This document shows, in pieces, positions 18,931-40,405 of a stretch of 64,000 bases of DNA. The stretch covers positions 744,001 through 808,000 of the forward strand of contig JAKTTT010000001.1 of the NCBI GenBank assembly GCA_030581615.1, given 5' to 3'. Each line of letters starts with the position of its first letter. Position 1 is the first letter of the stretch. Under the pieces are notes generated by a model that was not told the DNA's origin, made no database searches, and saw only the letters and a list, made by a program, of their open reading frames with translations. The position numbers and the translations under genes were made by a program. The DNA is from Alloascoidea africana (lineage: Eukaryota; Ascomycota; Alloascoideomycetes; Alloascoideales; Alloascoideaceae).

Positions 18931-21900
18931 TTACCATGAGATTCTGGCAATAACTCCCTTAGGATATTTGCGAACAAAAAACTTTCTGGTTTCATCAAGG
19001 AAGAGCAAAATGAAGCCGAACGCTAAAGGCAGGAAAAAATATTCAACTGGAACAGTGCTGGAATTGATGACTTTCTGAAGGCGTGGAATATAGTTGAAGA
19101 TAAAGATCATCACAAACGCAAACAGTATGCCGATGAATAGCCTAGGGCTCTGTGTCTCCTTGTTAAACAAAGGCGGATGATTTATCACACTCATATATCT
19201 TGTCCTGATACACATGAGATTGAAGAATTGCATTATAACCAAGTTGGTGAAAAAGATACTGGAAGCTTTGTTCGTGACAGTAGCGACATACTCCGGCGTC
19301 GCACCTTTCACATCGCCAAAAGACATTGTCAAGTCGCTGAACTTGAGACCTTGGCGCTAAATTTTTGAAAGTGTAAGCGGATGAATGTGAAGAGAATCGA
19401 GAAATAAAAAACATACCTGCATATACCAAAATGCCATGGCATTGGAACATAAGGATTCGATTACACCAATAAAGAGATACGCTTGCCCGAAGAATTTGGC
19501 ATTGACCAAACGCTCCCCAGTAACGCTCCTTGGTAGTCTTTTCAGGAGATCTCTTTCTGGTTTTTCATACGTTAGCATAACAGCTGACAAACAATCAGTT
19601 AAACAGCAAATGACAATCATCAGGAAGGATGACAGAACCTGTGGAAGCCCGAAAAAGACGTTCAACAGAACTGGCCATATTTCACTAAATGAACCAGCAG
19701 GAACGAGATAGAGGATGACTTTCTTCAAATTGTCTACAAGAATTGTGTTAGTTTGTACTGCGAGCCACATGTTGATAAGAACTTACCAAACACCAGTCTT
19801 CCGTATTTGAGAGCATGCACCATGCTCGAAAAGCTGTCAAAAAGAACAAGATCTGAGGCCTCGATGGCAACATCCGAGCCGTTTCCCATGGCTATTCCAA
19901 CGTCTGCCGCCTTCAGCGAGGGTGCGTCGTTGACTCCGTCGCCCGTCATCCCAACAATGTGCTTCCTGCTTTGGAACTCCTTCACAATCCGGTACTTTTG
20001 CTCTGGCGTCGTCCGCGCAAACACAATCTCCCTGTAGTCTGTGAGATGGCACCACTGGTTCTCGTTCAGCGCGCCTAGCGACCCGCCATTCACCACTATT
20101 GCCCTGTCGATGAGGTCCTCGTTAAGGCTTTTCTTGGACGCTTCGGGAATTGTGTACTCAGGATCCAGGTCGTCTGAGCTGTCAATGCAGTCGCTGCGGA
20201 CTGTCACAATCCCACACTGCTGGGCGATAGCCAGTGCCGTGAGCTCATAGTCGCCCGTCACCATTGCCAGGCGGATTCCAGCTCCTTGCAGAGTCTCGAC
20301 CACATCTGGGATGTCGTCCTTCGGCGGATCTGTGATTCCAGCCAGCCCAAGAAGTACGAGGTTTGCTTTCGCCATCCCAAAAATGCCGTTCGCGAAAGTT
20401 TCAGAGGTTGGCGGGTTCATTGACTCCAGCGACTTGGACGGGACCGTGAGCCTCCTGGCCAGCAGGATCACTCGCTTTCCCTTCACGGACCAGGCCTTCT
20501 GGAGATCCGAGATTCTGCTTAAGTACTCCTGAGTAATCTCCTTGATCTCTCTGTCGCCAGGATCGAGATAGTACAGGCATCTGGGAAGGAGAATATCAGG
20601 AGCGCCTTTCACAAACAGAAGATGGTCTTCTTCTCTCTTGACGCCGAGCTGGTCAAAGTACACTGGGTCCGCGTTGTAGTGCCCAGGCACGGGCTTGAAG
20701 AGACTGACCATGAACTTGTTTTTGCTGTCGAATGGCAGCTCGTACACCTTTTCCCACTTGCTTCTGGTTTCGCCAACAGACGAAATGTACTCAGAGAACC
20801 TCAACAGAGCCTGGTCTGTAGCGTCGCCGTGGATCTCTCGCTCGGCAAGAGGAGCCTTTCCCTGGTCGTTCTCCGAAGTTGGCGCAGCAAATTCGCCGGC
20901 GTTGCACAATGCCGCTGCTGTTTGGAGCTGTTTCAAACATTGTGGATCAGGGCGGTCGTTATCCTCGTCAATCAGCGACTCGTCCAGTACGTCGTAGCCA
21001 TGAGCTCCCACAGACACGTTTGTCACAAACATTTTGTTCTTGGTAAGTGTTCCCGTTTTGTCTGAGCATATCACAGACACAGAGCCCAGGGTTTCGACAA
21101 CAGCCAGCGATTTACAAAGAATGTTATGTTTCTGCATTTTCCAAGCGGTAATCGTCAAGCACATTCCAAAAGCAACAGGTAAGCCTTCAGGAATAAAAGC
21201 CACTGCAATGCTGACACAATCAATGATCAATCCACTAACGTTAATCCAATCGTGATGCTTCTTTCGTATCCAAGTAGCCCAAACGATGATTACCACAATA
21301 ACCGTTGTGAAAATAAGGATTGTAGTAATCACAATAAATCTCAGAATTTCTTTCTGGATGGGAGTCAATCCTGTAGTAGGAGCGGAAGACATTTTTGCAA
21401 TTTTACCAAAGACAGTATTGTCTCCTGTTGACACCACAACTCCAGTTCCATTTCCTGAGGTACAAAAGGACCCTTGCATTGCAATTGATTTCGATTCCAA
21501 ATAGTTGGTCCCCAATGAAGACGGCTCGGCAGAGCCTATCACGGGCTTTGACTCACCAGTGAGCACAGCTCTGTCAAATTTCAACTCAGTAGATGCTTCG
21601 ACAATTCTCAAATCAGCGGGGATTTTACTACCAATTTTGAATTTCACAACGTCTCCAGGAACCAACTCTTTGGAAAAAATGACCGAGATTTTTCCATCTC
21701 TTACCACCATTGAAGTCTCAGGCATCATGCTGCTAATCGATTCCATCACCTTGGAAGAGGAATAATCTTGCCAAGCATTGAAAGCAGCTTGGATAACAAA
21801 GACGATGAGCATGACGATACCCAGAGCCAAATTAGCAGCTTGAGGGTTAGGATTACCAAGTGGTTTCCAACAAACACAACAGAGAATACCAGCAATTAAC

Positions 21901-22382
21901 AACAATGGTCCAAACCCATTGAAAAGGTATGAGAAAATTTTCTTCGCCAAATGTCTGGATGGCTTTGAATGAGCATTAACACCATAAAGTTTTTGCCTTC
22001 CTGGAATGTCATTTTCATTAAGACCTTCTCCCAACGAAGTATCAAGTTTGAGATATAGTTGCTTAAGAGGCAATGTGTGCCAATCAAGGTGAGAGAATTC
22101 ATTAATTGTGGGATCCTCGACCTGACTCTGTTTGGACTCCTCTCTTTCGTGGGCTTCGTCAACGCCAAGCGAGAGTGTTCTATAGAAAGCAGGAAGAAGA
22201 ACTTCGGGTGCAATTTTTCTTTTTCCACTCAAAGTGCGCTCGAGGCTAATTCTGGACCTTGAACGGGACTGACTGCGATTGTGGCCACGGTCATAGATAC
22301 TTTTCTTGGACTTCCTTCCCCGTTCGGCGTCTTCAGCAATTTCAATGGTGAAAGATTTGGTTTTGGGCTCCGAATCAGACAT
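18931..22382 (-). CDS. P-type alkali-cation ATPase, Na,K-ATPase/ACU-like (copy 1)
   Basis: Three exons give 1,112 residues: 22382-19787, 19733-19417 and 19356-18931. The introns are 53 nt and 60 nt, with GTAAGT and GTATGT donors. I chose the ATG at 22382 (MSDSEPK) over one 43 codons upstream because the cytoplasmic N-terminus begins there and the upstream part is hydrophobic leader-like sequence. Seen in order: a cation-ATPase N domain (FSHLDWHTLPL), LTGES, M4 PEGLP (Glu399), the phosphorylation motif CSDKTGTLT (Asp near 441), FARTTPEQKY, MTGDGVNDAP, DNLKK and M5-M10. This is a type II pump close to animal Na,K-ATPase alpha chains and to fungal Na,K/ACU pumps. M5 keeps Glu883; M6 reads ICCLTD, with Cys where animal pumps have an Asp. 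It is a tandem paralogue of 24905-28331. Confidence 0.9.
19718..21175. repeat. identical block shared with the second ATPase gene (copy 1 side)
   Basis: This 1,458-bp stretch matches 25706-27163 base for base wherever I compared them (constant offset 5,988), including the 53-nt intron at 19734-19786. Both edges are sharp: at 21175/21176 the copies split into different codons just after the M4 motif, and at 19718 they split inside exon 2. Outside the block the copies are clearly diverged. G+C is raised inside it. Confidence 0.92.
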
Positions 22383-24904
22383 GTTCCTTTTGCAAAGTGC
22401 AGCTAGAAGTTGGATAGTAAATCCGGGGAAACAGTATTTGAAACAGAGTTTGAAAAAGTACTTTGGAGAGTGTGCTAACACAGCCAAAAAGGAAGAGAAT
22501 ACTGAGAGCAAGGGAAAATTGGAAGAAAAGGGGAGCTTTATACCCTCCAGGATATCACTACGATTGAATTATCGTCCTAAGAAAGCAGGATTCAAAGTTT
22601 GTCACTTTTTTCGGTTTTAATTTCGATACTAGAGTTCGAATTTTCAGATATTCTTCTATCTTCTTTGGTTACATCGTGCTGGAAACACAATTTCAGGATA
22701 CCAGAAATCTAAGCCATGCTACTATGGGAGAGGCATTTTTGCCAGCCCTGAAAGGGTGGTGCGAGAACTACTGCGTGGCGGTCTTTGCTCACCCTCATTG
22801 GCCATGTTGGGACATATCTGAGTTCATCTCAGTGAATGAGCGATTTTTGAAGATTTAGTTAAACATATGAAAAGGGTGTTTGGGTGAACGCGTAGGGTGG
22901 TGTCCTTCTATGGCGTTGAGACATTTTTTTTCCATTGCTGTAAACAAGCATATGAATGGACAAAGTAAATAGAGTCAGACCCATTATAGAATGGAGATCT
23001 CCATTCCACTTGTGCTCCTGACAGCGTCCCAAATAGTCAAAGTCACGAATATCCCTCGCGTTAGTCTATTTGCAGTAGTTTTTGCGAGTTCCTTGATCAC
23101 AATCGTACCCCACACTATGAGGCACCAGTAGTATAAACTGAAGTACGTCATCTTGAGCGATAAATGAAATGATTATTCTCTCCCTTTGCTTTCAGTCAAC
23201 ACGTTGAAGTTAGCTGACGTCAATTATTATTCACCTTTGTCCATACTTTTTCTACATTTATTAGTCTGAAAACTACTCTCAGAAGTGTTCTAATCCTCGT
23301 AAGTTCTTGATTTCGGTACATGTAGATAAGATTGCGTTGACATCTCCTTACAACCAGACTGGCGGAGTGCATAGGCATGAAAGGCTGAGAACTCATTCTT
23401 AAACCTAATCTTCCTTTTCTGTACCATCTGGAATCAAGTGAATATTCAAAAGGGTTTCGCATAGCCTTCCCATGTTTAAAACAATTCTTGCCAGCGCCAT
23501 ACTCTTGGTAACTTTTTTGAGTTTTTTAGCCGCGGCTTTTCGCTTTTTCCCTTTCGAGATTGAGCCCTTCGAGTTTTATGCTTATTAGCATATTTTGAAG
23601 TTTTGTTATTCGATGGACGCGCACAACAAATCCCATCCTTCTATTCCTAAATCTAATCTACAAAATGATAGAAGTAAACAACGTAGGCTACTCTCCGTTG
23701 CCGCTCCCTATCAAATTTGAATCAACTTTCTTTCCACTTCCTGTACAGTTATTGAATATTTTGAGCAATTATAGTTTGAATTAGACTTCCTTTTTGTTAT
23801 TCCAAAACATGGCAATACAATTCACTGCAATTGGATTCACAAGATAAAAGTACAAAGTATATGTTAAAAGGCAAGAGACTGTCTTGGCTTATGCCAGCTC
23901 ACCGGCTTCCACACGGAGGGTCGCAGAATATCTGACCAAGTTGGCAAATTCGCTTTCTACACAGACGTTGCTTTCAAAATGGCTAGGTTTTTAACGAGAA
24001 ATTCACCAAATGCTCTCTGTGCAAGCCCCGCTCCCAACAAAGGGTGTACGGGTGTTGACGTTCTGGGATAATCTAGGGGCAAGGAAGTTCATTAAGAGAG
24101 GCCTCGGATAGAAAATGAATAAGTAGTATTTTAAATCTGTGGCGTAGTTGATAAATTGGAAAGATTTTAGCTGGTGTCCGGTGCTGGGTCCTTTAAGATG
24201 ACTTCTATAAATATACTTAGTGGGAAGTGATTCACACCAGGAGGCCTCAAAATACGGAACGATACTAGCACATTAAATATATCCTTTAGATTAGCTAGCT
24301 TGCAATGATAATGTGGTAAATTATAGTAGATCTCGCTCATGACATCATAAAAGGGCAAATATGAATGAAATTTAAAAAGCTGAAGACTAAACTTCCATCT
24401 AGTGCATGCCCTCAGAAAACCAATCTAGTAACAGAACGGCTCGGAAATTTTTCTCTTTCCAACTTTATTAGAGATGATTGAATTGAATGTTCTTAACCAC
24501 GAGTGTTTCAGAACCTGTAGTAAACCCTGGTCTCAAATATTGAGTATAAAGGTAACAAAGTCGACTCCTTGCGTCAATATCTAGATCAAAGTATGAGAAG
24601 ATCATGAGCAATCCTGTCACCCTTTTTGCTGGGTTTTGTTAAGCTTTGAATAGCTTGAAGCAATGAAACAAGTCTTTGTTTTCTTGACATTCATTTCAAC
24701 CAGTATCGAGAGACTTTTTGTTGAGTATCTGGTTAATACTTGTCTAGGATTAAGTCAAAGTGTTTTCGCGAATGGGGACAGTGGTTGAAACTAGTATATT
24801 GAAAATAAACGGATCCTTATTGATCATACTACTTCTCTCTACATAAACATAAATTCTACTCCAAAAAATTAAACGATTGATAATGAAAATCCGGGCAAAC
24901 TTTT
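22383..24904. other. spacer between the two ATPase genes
   Basis: 2.5 kb that includes the copy 1 promoter and the region past the stop codon of copy 2. Short frames (22676-22858, 23220-23462, 24167-24358) have no recognisable product. I see no third ATPase remnant and no repeat at the ends of the duplication. Confidence 0.6.
22536..22542 (-). promoter_or_regulatory. core promoter of ATPase copy 1
   Basis: TATAAAG on the reverse strand, about 155 bp before the start at 22382. It sits in CTGGAGGGTATAAAGCTCCC, which resembles the second copy's CTGGAGACTATAAATTCCC, so the two core promoters share ancestry. Confidence 0.5.
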
Positions 24905-27900
24905 TCACCAGGAAATCCTGGCGATTTTTCCTTGTGGATATTTGCGAACAAAGAATTTTCTGGCTTCATCAAGGAACAGCAAGAAGAAGCCAAAAGCCAA
25001 AGGCAAGAAGAAATATTCCACTGGAACAGCAGTAGAGTTAATAACTTTTTGAAGTGGAGGAATATAATTGAATATAAAAACCATTGCAAAAGAGCCAATA
25101 ATGCCAATGAATAGTTTGGGGCTCTGTGTTTCCTTGTTGAACAGAGGTGGGTGGTTGATGATGCTTTTGTATCTGGTCCTAGCACACATAAGGTTGAAGA
25201 ATTGAATGATCACAATGTTTGTGAAAAAGATACTAGAAGCCGTGTTTGTTGCAGCGGCTACATACTCTGGTGTAGCACCTTCAACATCCCCAAAAGACAT
25301 TGACAAGTCACTAAATTTGAGACCTTTGCGCTATTGTTCTTCAATGTTAGGTTATTTTACCACTAATATGCAGGGAATAGGAATAAAGTAAACCGAACGC
25401 ATACCTGCAGGTACCAAAATGCCATTGCGTTGCAACATAGAGATTCAAACACGCCAATGAAAAAGTATCCTTGTCCAAAAAATCTAAAGTTCACCAAACG
25501 CTCGCCTGTAACACTTCTTGGAGGTCTTTTCAGGAGATCTCTTTCTGGTTTTTCATAAGTCAACATAATCGAGGGGATACAATCGGTTAGACAGCAAATG
25601 ACAATCATCAGGAAGGATGAAAGCACCTGTGGCAGCCCGAAAAAGACGTTCAACAGAACTGGCCATATTTCACTGAAAGACCCCGCTGGAAGAAGAAACA
25701 AGATCACTTTCTTCAAATTGTCTACAAGAATTGTGTTAGTTTGTACTGCGAGCCACATGTTGATAAGAACTTACCAAACACCAGTCTTCCGTATTTGAGA
25801 GCATGCACCATGCTCGAAAAGCTGTCAAAAAGAACAAGATCTGAGGCCTCGATGGCAACATCCGAGCCGTTTCCCATGGCTATTCCAACGTCTGCCGCCT
25901 TCAGCGAGGGTGCGTCGTTGACTCCGTCGCCCGTCATCCCAACAATGTGCTTCCTGCTTTGGAACTCCTTCACAATCCGGTACTTTTGCTCTGGCGTCGT
26001 CCGCGCAAACACAATCTCCCTGTAGTCTGTGAGATGGCACCACTGGTTCTCGTTCAGCGCGCCTAGCGACCCGCCATTCACCACTATTGCCCTGTCGATG
26101 AGGTCCTCGTTAAGGCTTTTCTTGGACGCTTCGGGAATTGTGTACTCAGGATCCAGGTCGTCTGAGCTGTCAATGCAGTCGCTGCGGACTGTCACAATCC
26201 CACACTGCTGGGCGATAGCCAGTGCCGTGAGCTCATAGTCGCCCGTCACCATTGCCAGGCGGATTCCAGCTCCTTGCAGAGTCTCGACCACATCTGGGAT
26301 GTCGTCCTTCGGCGGATCTGTGATTCCAGCCAGCCCAAGAAGTACGAGGTTTGCTTTCGCCATCCCAAAAATGCCGTTCGCGAAAGTTTCAGAGGTTGGC
26401 GGGTTCATTGACTCCAGCGACTTGGACGGGACCGTGAGCCTCCTGGCCAGCAGGATCACTCGCTTTCCCTTCACGGACCAGGCCTTCTGGAGATCCGAGA
26501 TTCTGCTTAAGTACTCCTGAGTAATCTCCTTGATCTCTCTGTCGCCAGGATCGAGATAGTACAGGCATCTGGGAAGGAGAATATCAGGAGCGCCTTTCAC
26601 AAACAGAAGATGGTCTTCTTCTCTCTTGACGCCGAGCTGGTCAAAGTACACTGGGTCCGCGTTGTAGTGCCCAGGCACGGGCTTGAAGAGACTGACCATG
26701 AACTTGTTTTTGCTGTCGAATGGCAGCTCGTACACCTTTTCCCACTTGCTTCTGGTTTCGCCAACAGACGAAATGTACTCAGAGAACCTCAACAGAGCCT
26801 GGTCTGTAGCGTCGCCGTGGATCTCTCGCTCGGCAAGAGGAGCCTTTCCCTGGTCGTTCTCCGAAGTTGGCGCAGCAAATTCGCCGGCGTTGCACAATGC
26901 CGCTGCTGTTTGGAGCTGTTTCAAACATTGTGGATCAGGGCGGTCGTTATCCTCGTCAATCAGCGACTCGTCCAGTACGTCGTAGCCATGAGCTCCCACA
27001 GACACGTTTGTCACAAACATTTTGTTCTTGGTAAGTGTTCCCGTTTTGTCTGAGCATATCACAGACACAGAGCCCAGGGTTTCGACAACAGCCAGCGATT
27101 TACAAAGAATGTTATGTTTCTGCATTTTCCAAGCGGTAATCGTCAAGCACATTCCAAAAGCAATTGGCAATCCATCTGGCATGTAGGCAACAGAGAGACT
27201 CACACAATGAATCACCAATTGGCTAGGAGAGATCCAGTTTGGATATGCATTTCGAATCCACGCGGCCCAAACTATACTGACTATAGCTGAGGTTGAAACA
27301 ATCAAGGAAATTGTTATCATAATGAATCTAAAAATTTCCTTTTGAATAGGAGTAGATTCATCATTAGGCGCGGATGACATCTTGGCAATTTTACCGAAAA
27401 CAGTATTGTCACCGGTTGAAACCACAACTCCAGTACCATTTCCTGAGGTACAGAAAGACCCTTGCATTGCAATTGATTTGGATTCCAAATAGTTGGTCCC
27501 TAAGGGAGAAGGTTCGGCAATGCCCAACACAGGTTTTGACTCGCCAGTAAGAACTGCTCTGTAGCATTTTAATTCGCCTGCAGTTTCTATGATTCTTAAG
27601 TCAGCTGGAATCTTGCTACCAATTTTAAACTTTACAACGTCACCGGGTACCAACTCTTTTGAGTGTATCACCAATATCCTTCCATCTCTAACCACAGTAG
27701 CATTCTCCGGCATCATACTGCTAATAGATTCCATCACCTTGGAGGAGGAATAATCTTGCCAAGCGTTGAAAACGGCTTGGACAACAAAGACTATGAGCAT
27801 GACGATACCGAGAGCCAAGTTAGAAGCCTGGGGATTAGGATTACCGAGCGGTTTCCAACAAACGCAGCAGAGAATACCACCAATCAGAAACAGAGGTCCA

Positions 27901-28331
27901 AACCCACTGAAGAGATAGAAGAATGTCTTTTTGGCAAGATTACGTGAAGGCTTGGAATGAGTGTTTAGACCGTAAATCTTGTGTCTCTCTGGAATAGTAT
28001 TAGAATTTAGACCAGTAATGAGAGAGGTTTCAAGTTTCTGCGATAACTCTTGAAATGGTAAAGTATGCCAATCAAGATGAGAAAACTCGTTAAAATTAGG
28101 ATCTTCACCCGCATTTTCTTTGAGTTCCTCTTTGTTATGAACTTCATCAATGCCAACAGAAAGAGTTTGATAAAAGGCAGGAAGGACAGCCTCCGGTACT
28201 GCTTTTCTTGCACCTGCGGCTACTCGTCCCAGAGTGGATTTATGATGGTGTGGCTCACAATTGGATATGACCTTTTCCAAATCAGGCTCTTCGTTAGCTT
28301 CAATGGTAAAAAGATTCTTTTTATTGGTCAT
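24905..28331 (-). CDS. P-type alkali-cation ATPase, Na,K-ATPase/ACU-like (copy 2)
   Basis: Three exons give 1,099 residues: 28331-25775, 25721-25405 and 25330-24905. Introns are 53 nt (identical to copy 1) and 74 nt (GTATGC donor, CCTAAC branch). The domain order is as in copy 1: LTGESKPV, CSDKTGTLT, TGDGVNDAP, DNLKK and the M5-M10 segments. The cytoplasmic catalytic part is identical in sequence to copy 1. The N-terminus, M1-M4 and M5-M10 differ. The M4 cation motif is PDGLP (Asp386) instead of PEGLP. In animal Na,K-ATPase the equivalent Glu327 binds transported ions, so ion preference or affinity may differ. It keeps all catalytic motifs and looks functional. Confidence 0.9.
25706..27163. 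repeat. identical block shared with the first ATPase gene (copy 2 side)
   Basis: Partner of 19718-21175, in the same orientation. It covers the coding region for the phosphorylation and nucleotide-binding domains, the first intron and the first few codons of exon 2. The G+C count is 34 of 60 at 26641-26700, against 27 of 60 just outside at 27241-27300. Confidence 0.92.
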
Positions 28332-39143: not shown

Positions 39144-40405
39144 TTAGAGCTTGGAGCGTCCAAAGATAACCTCTTCCACGAGCTTGACGGTGATTTCCGC
39201 AGTGCCATACGAGGACTGGTAGCCCGCTCCCCCGGCCCCGTAGTTGTGAACAACGTTGCCGACGCCAGGAATCGCTTCCTTGTCGACTCTGATTCCACCA
39301 ACACGTCCGGGACGAAGCCCTACGCAGGTCCGCACAAGGTCTATTTCCTGACCGTTTTCCACCAGCTCAGGGGCATACTCGATCGCACGCTCAATAATCC
39401 GCTGCTTGAGCTGCTCGTCCGGCTCTCCTGAGTCAACATGGGGCAGAAAGCAGCCGCCCAGAATTGCACCTCCCTCTTTCCGGGGCATCATATACATGGC
39501 CTCTCCTGGATAGTCGGGGTAGCCTTCTCGCAAAACGCCTCGGCGAATATTGTTTCGTACCAGGAGGACCTGGCCGCGGATGGGATACACATTTGCGTCC
39601 TCGACTCCCCCCAGCGTCCTTGCCAGGAGCCCCGTGCAATTCACAATGACGTCGGGGTTCGCGCCCGAGTGGTGGTGTGAATTGGCCTCGCGAATGTGGC
39701 CAATGTGCACTCGCTTAAAAGAACCGCCGAGATTGACGATCTTGGAAAGCAGATAGTGGAGATAGATGGTCGTGGTGATCACGACGGTGCGGTACTTGTA
39801 GCCATAGACACAGTCTTTGGGAAGCTCGTCCTGGCCCAGCTCGGCAAAGTCGTGTACAAAGTCCTTGTACCAGGGCTTTCCTTCCTTCTGGGACTCGAGA
39901 TCGTCCTTGTGGTAATACACATACTGGAAGGTGCTCTATCGTGGAGGAGGTTAGCAAGGTTGCACACCAAGGTGCCAGGCACTCTGCACTCATACCCAGA
40001 TTCCGCTGGAGGGCTCCTCCTTGGCCAGCCGAAGAAACTCGAGATAGGCAGGCTTATCATACTCCTGATGGCGGAGGTCGCCGTTTTTTGCAAAGCCTTT
40101 GGATATCGCACTCGACCTGTTAGCTCCGTTCCCATAAATGTGTCCGCATACAGCTCAACTCACTCATCCAGTTGGCCCCTGCCCAGGGACTGGTGTAGTC
40201 AATGTCCAGATCTCCCGGTAGGTGTCTCGCAATGACCGTAACGTCATGTCCTCTTTGCAAAAGCAGATAGGCCGATGTCAAACCTGCAACTCCAGCTCTG
40301 GATCAAGACGGTTGGGTTAGCAAACCTCATCCTCATCACGGTACAAAATATCTCTCTCCTCCAACCAGAAGAGCTCTCTTACCCGACAACAACTACTTTC
40401 CCCAT
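39144..40405 (-). CDS. peroxisomal D-amino acid oxidase
   Basis: Four exons: 40405-40383, 40297-40164, 40096-39996 and 39935-39144. They give 349 residues with introns of 85, 67 and 60 nt. Each has a GT donor, a CTAAC branch and an AG acceptor, and the frame is kept throughout. The N-terminus MGKVVVVGAGVAGLTSAYLL is the FAD-binding Rossmann motif. TSPWAGANW, NCTGL, YPIRGQVLLV, CVGLRPGRVGG and VHNYGAGGAGYQSSYG are family signatures, and the whole resembles the Trigonopsis enzyme. It ends in SKL, a type 1 peroxisomal import signal. It oxidises D-amino acids to keto acids, ammonia and hydrogen peroxide. The 23-nt first exon is easy to miss. Exon 4 is GC-rich (35 of 60 at 39541-39600). The gene is divergent from the septin gene. 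Confidence 0.9.

Follow-up and report, generated by a model that had tools for sequence, protein, structure and literature searches.

The window analysed here, a 64,000-nucleotide stretch of the ascomycete Alloascoidea africana (contig JAKTTT010000001.1 of assembly GCA_030581615.1, positions 744,001 to 808,000), holds two P2-type ATPase genes in tandem on the minus strand, and the two share a long identical block that begins beside the codon for the M4 cation-binding acid, at which their proteins differ. Copy 1 (18931..22382) is read in three exons, with introns at 19786-19734 and 19416-19357, and encodes 1,112 amino acids; copy 2 (24905..28331), also in three exons with introns at 25774-25722 and 25404-25331, encodes 1,099. 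Residue numbers count from the first ATG, at 22382 in copy 1 and at 28331 in copy 2. Because both spliced frames are intact, with no internal stops, a pseudogene reading was rejected. The exon 1 frame of copy 1 matched the Pfam models E1-E2_ATPase, Cation_ATPase, Hydrolase and Cation_ATPase_N above their cut-offs, and its exon 3 frame matched Cation_ATPase_C; the exon 1 frame of copy 2 gave a domain set identical to that of copy 1 exon 1. Both proteins carry DKTGT, LTGES and TGDGVNDAP, by which we assign them to the P2-type ATPases.

The identical block is a run of 1,458 bp with zero mismatches, at 19718..21175 in copy 1 and 25706..27163 in copy 2 (minus strand in both, offset 5,988), which takes in the end of M4, the P and N domains, intron 1 and the start of M5. 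The catalytic loop formed by P and N thus falls within it, in agreement with an initial annotation of this stretch that had described a homogenised catalytic engine. Intron 1, inside the block, is identical at 53 of 53 bases; intron 2, outside it, measures 60 nt in copy 1 and 74 nt in copy 2 and differs in sequence as well. In the coding flanks, differences occupy 287.7 of 424.8 silent sites (pS 0.677) and 210.3 of 1465.2 replacement sites (pN 0.144). Across block codons 404-872, with some 324 silent sites, we found a single silent difference, in the edge codon V871 just past the end of the run, and the silent sites together with the 53-bp intron give a rough 95% upper bound of 0.8% (3/377) for neutral divergence since copying. 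The pattern is that of a gene-converted pair: a sharply bounded stretch, identical even at silent sites and in its intron, set within diverged homologues. Because the identity extends to the intron and the flanks are saturated, recent ectopic (non-allelic) gene conversion is the best reading, and the block was probably copied recently between the two genes. A search of the flanks for older and smaller tracts gave, downstream, a longest silent-identical run of 12 codons (residues 882-894, permutation P = 0.07; a second run of 12 codons lies at residues 921-933) and, upstream, one of 6 codons (P = 0.90); the best 20-codon windows gave P = 0.07 upstream and 0.23 downstream. With permutation P values of 0.07-0.90, we make no claim for such tracts.

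The upstream edge of the block lies next to the M4 motif, for which the initial annotation had given PEGLP with Glu399 in copy 1 and PDGLP with Asp386 in copy 2; on re-reading the codons, this proved correct to the base. E399 is encoded by GAA at 21186..21188 (minus strand), within PEGLP at 21177-21191 (CCT GAA GGC TTA CCT), and D386 by GAT at 27174..27176 (minus strand), within PDGLP at 27165-27179 (CCA GAT GGA TTG CCA). All five motif codons differ at the third base, and only the Glu/Asp difference alters the protein. The column aligns with E327 of Na,K-ATPase. Directly after the motif, copy 1 reads GTT (V403) and copy 2 ATT (I390); this codon differs at its first base and is identical from its second, where the run starts, so the block does begin within the codon that follows the motif, as had been proposed. 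Homology drops at both edges, with 64 of 150 bases different at the upstream edge and 10 of 28 at the downstream one. When a tract of 1,458 bp was placed at random over the alignable span, its upstream edge came within 15 bp of the M4 acid codon in 2.2% of 1,505 placements, a figure from a test devised after the data had been seen, with no correction for further ligand codons or for domain boundaries.

For comparison, we drew relatives from the best 30 loci of each of two prokaryote groups, where matches occurred in 99 of 99 and in 75 of 96 genomes, and from loci in five further records. In the 85 loci, copy 1 was matched by 83 frames with lengths of 450 residues or more, and 78 remained after removal of repeats; their M4 column reads Glu in 73, Cys in four, Ser in one and Asp in none. 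Twelve frames were excluded from the main count, namely seven that duplicate a gene already present (Glu), four frames of two genes, each present twice, whose CPC motif we take as a mark of the heavy-metal type, and one unclear frame (Ser). This left 66 frames, with an identity of about 27-38% over the longer matched stretches, and 65 at 90% redundancy. Among these 65 non-redundant P2-type relatives, all prokaryotic and none a fungal pump, the M4 acid is Glu in every one and Asp in none. In viral contigs, two stretches fitted a pattern and neither was confirmed. Asp at the M4 acid is thus unusual; since the relatives are exclusively prokaryotic, PDGLP may be commoner among fungal pumps than this count suggests. 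The flanks contain 16 columns that are fully invariant in the family and 44 that are at least 90% conserved, and in either set the copies differ at the same two positions, L161F and E399D. At a looser threshold of 70%, there are 11 columns at which the copies differ, with the consensus residue in copy 1 at five, in copy 2 at three and in neither at three.

Outside the block, differences between the proteins are concentrated in M3-M4, which up to the block edge corresponds to 21174..21365 in copy 1 (residues 340-403) and 27162..27353 in copy 2 (residues 327-390), on the minus strand in each. This is the most diverged membrane part, with 27 of 64 residues changed as against 46 of 299 in the other membrane segments (Fisher P = 8e-6). 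Against expectations from family variability, M3-M4 shows 23 differences where 10.4 are expected (57 scorable columns, P = 0.0001); the stretch before M1 shows 16 against 12.0 (P = 0.13), and no excess is seen in M1-M2 (7 against 9.0), M5-M6 (14 against 19.3), M7-M10 (19 against 21.7) or the A domain (18 against 24.5). The raw shares tell the same story, at 8/59 in M1-M2, 14/99 in M5-M6, 24/141 in M7-M10 and a similar 19/134 in the soluble A domain. The test was repeated after setting rates by the other regions and splitting the family by locus number into 37 and 29 sequences. The 23 differences in M3-M4 then stood against 8.3 and 9.6 expected, a number reached in none of 20,000 simulations; the A domain showed a deficit (18 against 29.5 and 28.2; P = 0.008 and 0.016) and M5-M6 a weaker one (14 against 20.6 and 21.5; P = 0.055 and 0.034). 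Beside the acid itself, copy 2 carries the M4 changes D388H, A393S, F396Y and I397M (copy 1 numbering). The initial annotation had called for a check of membrane excess and had held that the ion site and the membrane helices stay different; the M4 acid and the M3-M4 excess bear this out, but M1-M2, M5-M6 and M7-M10 have no excess and the aligned M5-M6 ligands do not differ between the copies, so that the broader statement that all membrane helices are kept different was rejected.

Silent sites within the flanks are not uniformly diverged either. Among codons for the same residue, 11 of 34 are identical between the copies in M3-M4, compared with 202 of 351 in M1-M2, the A domain, M5-M6 and M7-M10 together (P = 0.006); the stretch before M1, which was excluded from that test, resembles M3-M4 (13 of 36). 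On the simplest reading, M3-M4 and the stretch before M1 have gone longest without conversion. Separately, the N-terminal tails (22104-22382 in copy 1, 28092-28331 in copy 2) differ at 46 of 80 aligned residues, an amino-acid divergence that exceeds that of M3-M4, and an Arg/Ser-rich stretch in the copy 1 tail is absent from copy 2; this contrast is perhaps a regulatory difference.

The remaining ligand positions and the class of the pumps qualify what can be read from E327. Na,K-ATPase ligand numbers are given as placed on the alpha-4 protein, a placement that we presume to be right. Copy 1 has the M5 Glu (E883, for E779) and the M6 Asp (D912, for D808), with the same codons in copy 2. At the position of D804, copy 1 has C908 (TGC at 19606..19608, minus strand) and copy 2 the counterpart Cys (TGC at 25594..25596, minus strand), in a column that reads Asn in 59, Asp in five and a gap in two of the 66 relatives. 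Of the third-site positions, aligned between copy 1 and alpha-4, D926 is Asn and E954 a non-acid, and copy 2 is likewise. The best NCBIfam model is TIGR01106 (P-type IIC), which spliced copy 1 matches over profile positions 13-991 of 997 at 593 bits, the cut-off being 946.1; the exon 1 frame of copy 2 alone scores 473.9 bits. Among structures, the exon 1 frame matches Na,K-ATPase at about 413 bits and SERCA at about 258 bits. The score below cut-off, the Cys at D804, the Asn at D926 and the non-acid at E954 led us to reject canonical Na,K-ATPase as the family, and, given the Cys in both, neither copy looks like one. The match to E327 on which the initial annotation had relied holds as an alignment, but Cys at D804, which that annotation does not mention, weakens inference from it, and with the score and ligand differences conclusions from E327 transfer only loosely. 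The ligand list itself, in which E327 is a site II ligand in E1, is that given in PMC5026471. The SYG motif of beta-subunit assembly is absent from both proteins; in the sequence set described in PMC9609216 it occurs in no fungal sequence and in no protist sequence except choanoflagellates, so its absence does not separate fungal IIC pumps. No fungal IIC or IIE pump was named among the structure matches listed, and the remaining collections searched were prokaryotic or viral. Neighbours of the pair in the window include isocitrate lyase, septin, GPR1/FUN34, mitochondrial carrier and Nramp genes; introns are short and bounded by GT-AG. Both features point to a fungal genome.

Base composition sets the block apart as well. 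The GC content at third codon positions (GC3) is 0.626 in the block; the upstream and downstream flanks have 0.375 and 0.456 in copy 1, and in copy 2 they have 0.347 and 0.407. At fourfold-degenerate sites, the block has GC at 135 of 224, against 117 of 286 in the copy 1 flanks (P = 1.8e-5) and 103 of 281 in those of copy 2 (P = 1.7e-7). GC3 is moreover graded within the block, being 0.49 at up to 40 codons from an edge and 0.58-0.72 deeper in (over degenerate codons, Spearman rho 0.10 with P = 0.027; restricted to fourfold sites, 0.099 with P = 0.14). A raised and graded GC content would fit repeated GC-biased conversion, but because two of 15 other frames measured in the window also exceed a GC3 of 0.55, we take it as a hint only. 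The highest of those 15 belongs to a DAO-family frame (39144-39920, GC3 0.669).

We think it fairly probable that the locus represents an old tandem pair of P2-type pumps in partly concerted evolution, in which a block was recently converted, M3-M4 diverged and the cation binding of copy 2 was altered. In such a history, a recent non-allelic gene conversion would have carried a tract from one of the genes into its neighbour, with ends that fall where homology drops, as a simple physical limit on strand exchange; among the membrane parts, M3-M4 would have escaped conversion longest, and copy 2 would bind the transported cation differently, most likely through an altered affinity at the M4-lined site. 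Amino-acid change in the flanks far below silent change (the pN and pS given above), in two intact frames, counts in favour. By analogy, copy 2 probably has a cation affinity changed from that of copy 1: in SERCA, E309D and other changes at E309 are stated generally to prevent Ca2+ chelation at site II, in a simulation paper citing mutagenesis (PMC7890198). That the difference in M4, or in M3-M4, was itself selected for, with conversions into M4 removed, is only possible.

Several points weigh against this account. The direction of conversion could not be read from codon usage, the likelihood difference spanning zero; the M5-M6 ligand residues that were aligned are identical in both copies; and the family variability behind the expected counts derives from distant prokaryotes only. 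M3-M4 also leads the membrane segments in silent divergence, so the time elapsed since its last conversion may account for some of the excess, and missed conversion by itself could produce much of it. Copy 2, finally, is not uniformly deviant, since at three conserved columns it alone keeps the consensus.

The alternative that survives best is a neutral mosaic, in which conversion ended where homology failed, M3-M4 escaped by chance and drifted, and Asp is tolerated with little effect on transport; it is a real possibility, although we lean slightly against it. The low identity of same-residue codons in both M3-M4 and the stretch before M1 is in keeping with it, and an edge directly downstream of 150 bases of which 64 differ needs no selection. 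Nor is the position of the edge compelling, as the 2.2% refers to one codon named in advance and the chance of lying near any of several ligand codons is higher. Against it, the Glu in 65 of 65 relatives implies strong constraint on the M4 acid, and chelation by SERCA is reportedly impaired in E309D (PMC7890198).

Selection for two ion specificities or affinities, as put forward in the initial annotation, would remove converts with the wrong M4, so that tract ends cluster at the M4 acid. We regard this as possible but doubtful. The amino-acid excess in M3-M4, which is the best evidence in favour of that annotation, and the change of an otherwise invariant acid speak for it, and there is a partial precedent in the alpha-1 variants of three poison-frog species, which are set apart mainly by residues between membrane segments 1 and 2 (PMC10102066); one gene pair, however, provides one edge, and M1-M2, M5-M6 and M7-M10 show no comparable excess. 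A bolder form, in which recurrent GC-biased conversion renews one ATPase engine and selection holds two M3-M4 ion pathways, one of them with Asp, appears unlikely to us; were it true, the pair would be a natural domain-swap system for asking how the M4 acid sets cation selectivity.

Less credible again is relaxed constraint on the M4 of copy 2, with the protein losing or changing its function while conversion renews its catalytic part. Copy 2 does depart from the family consensus at L161, A164, A393, I397 and E399, where copy 1 keeps it, but it is intact across 1,099 codons, amino-acid changes in the flanks are far fewer than silent ones, and the three conserved columns at which it alone holds the consensus point the other way. 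Least likely of all, and improbable in our judgement, is that the block is an assembly artefact in which the central part of one copy was filled in with sequence of its partner, a reading that draws on a block longer than a short read and known from the assembled sequence alone, and that the lack of any N in the window (weakly) and the grading of block GC3 towards its ends (a weak sign of biological history, not decisive) tell against.

An old pair in partly concerted evolution is ordinary in kind, as tandem pumps go; what sets it apart is an unusual residue at a single site, within an M3-M4 segment whose divergence is itself out of the ordinary. Should the ion handling of the two pumps prove different, they would amount to a near-clean natural swap, with one catalytic loop and two M3-M4 pathways, one of them bearing the Asp that is reported to disturb chelation in SERCA, and would let one ask which changes make Asp workable. 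Even without an ion difference, this pair offers a clear example in which to measure the respective parts of conversion and selection in shaping a membrane protein.

Among known systems, SERCA carries PEGLP in M4, as copy 1 does. In M6 the likeness ends: at what we take to be the position of SERCA N796, both copies have Cys where most relatives have Asn, and the SERCA match is weaker than that to Na,K-ATPase. SERCA E309 is a site II ligand (PMC7890198). The animal Na,K/H,K-ATPase alpha subunits (TIGR01106) share the M5 Glu and the second M6 Asp with both copies and the M4 Glu with copy 1, but differ in the score (593 against 946.1 bits) and in the Cys, Asn and non-acid that stand here for D804, D926 and E954. 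Of the fungal pumps, IIC (BePAT, NK) pumps are described from all basal fungal taxa, IIE (ACU) pumps also from Zygomycota, and two IIC isoforms from two of three Glomus species (PMC1479386); the likeness is one of description, as fungal P2 pumps, rather than of compared sequence. In evolutionary behaviour, a close parallel is ATP1A1, the gene for Na,K-ATPase alpha-1, in frogs. Non-allelic gene conversion has been proposed for its duplicates in Leptodactylus (as cited in PMC10102066), and the same source describes two alpha-1 variants in each of three poison-frog species that match throughout, apart from differences placed mostly between the first and second membrane segments. The frog difference affects a toxin-binding loop, and toxin resistance has been reported; the present one lies in M3-M4 and a cation-binding acid and is known from sequence. 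Both the Leptodactylus genes and the present pair are duplicates of a cation pump with proposed non-allelic conversion.

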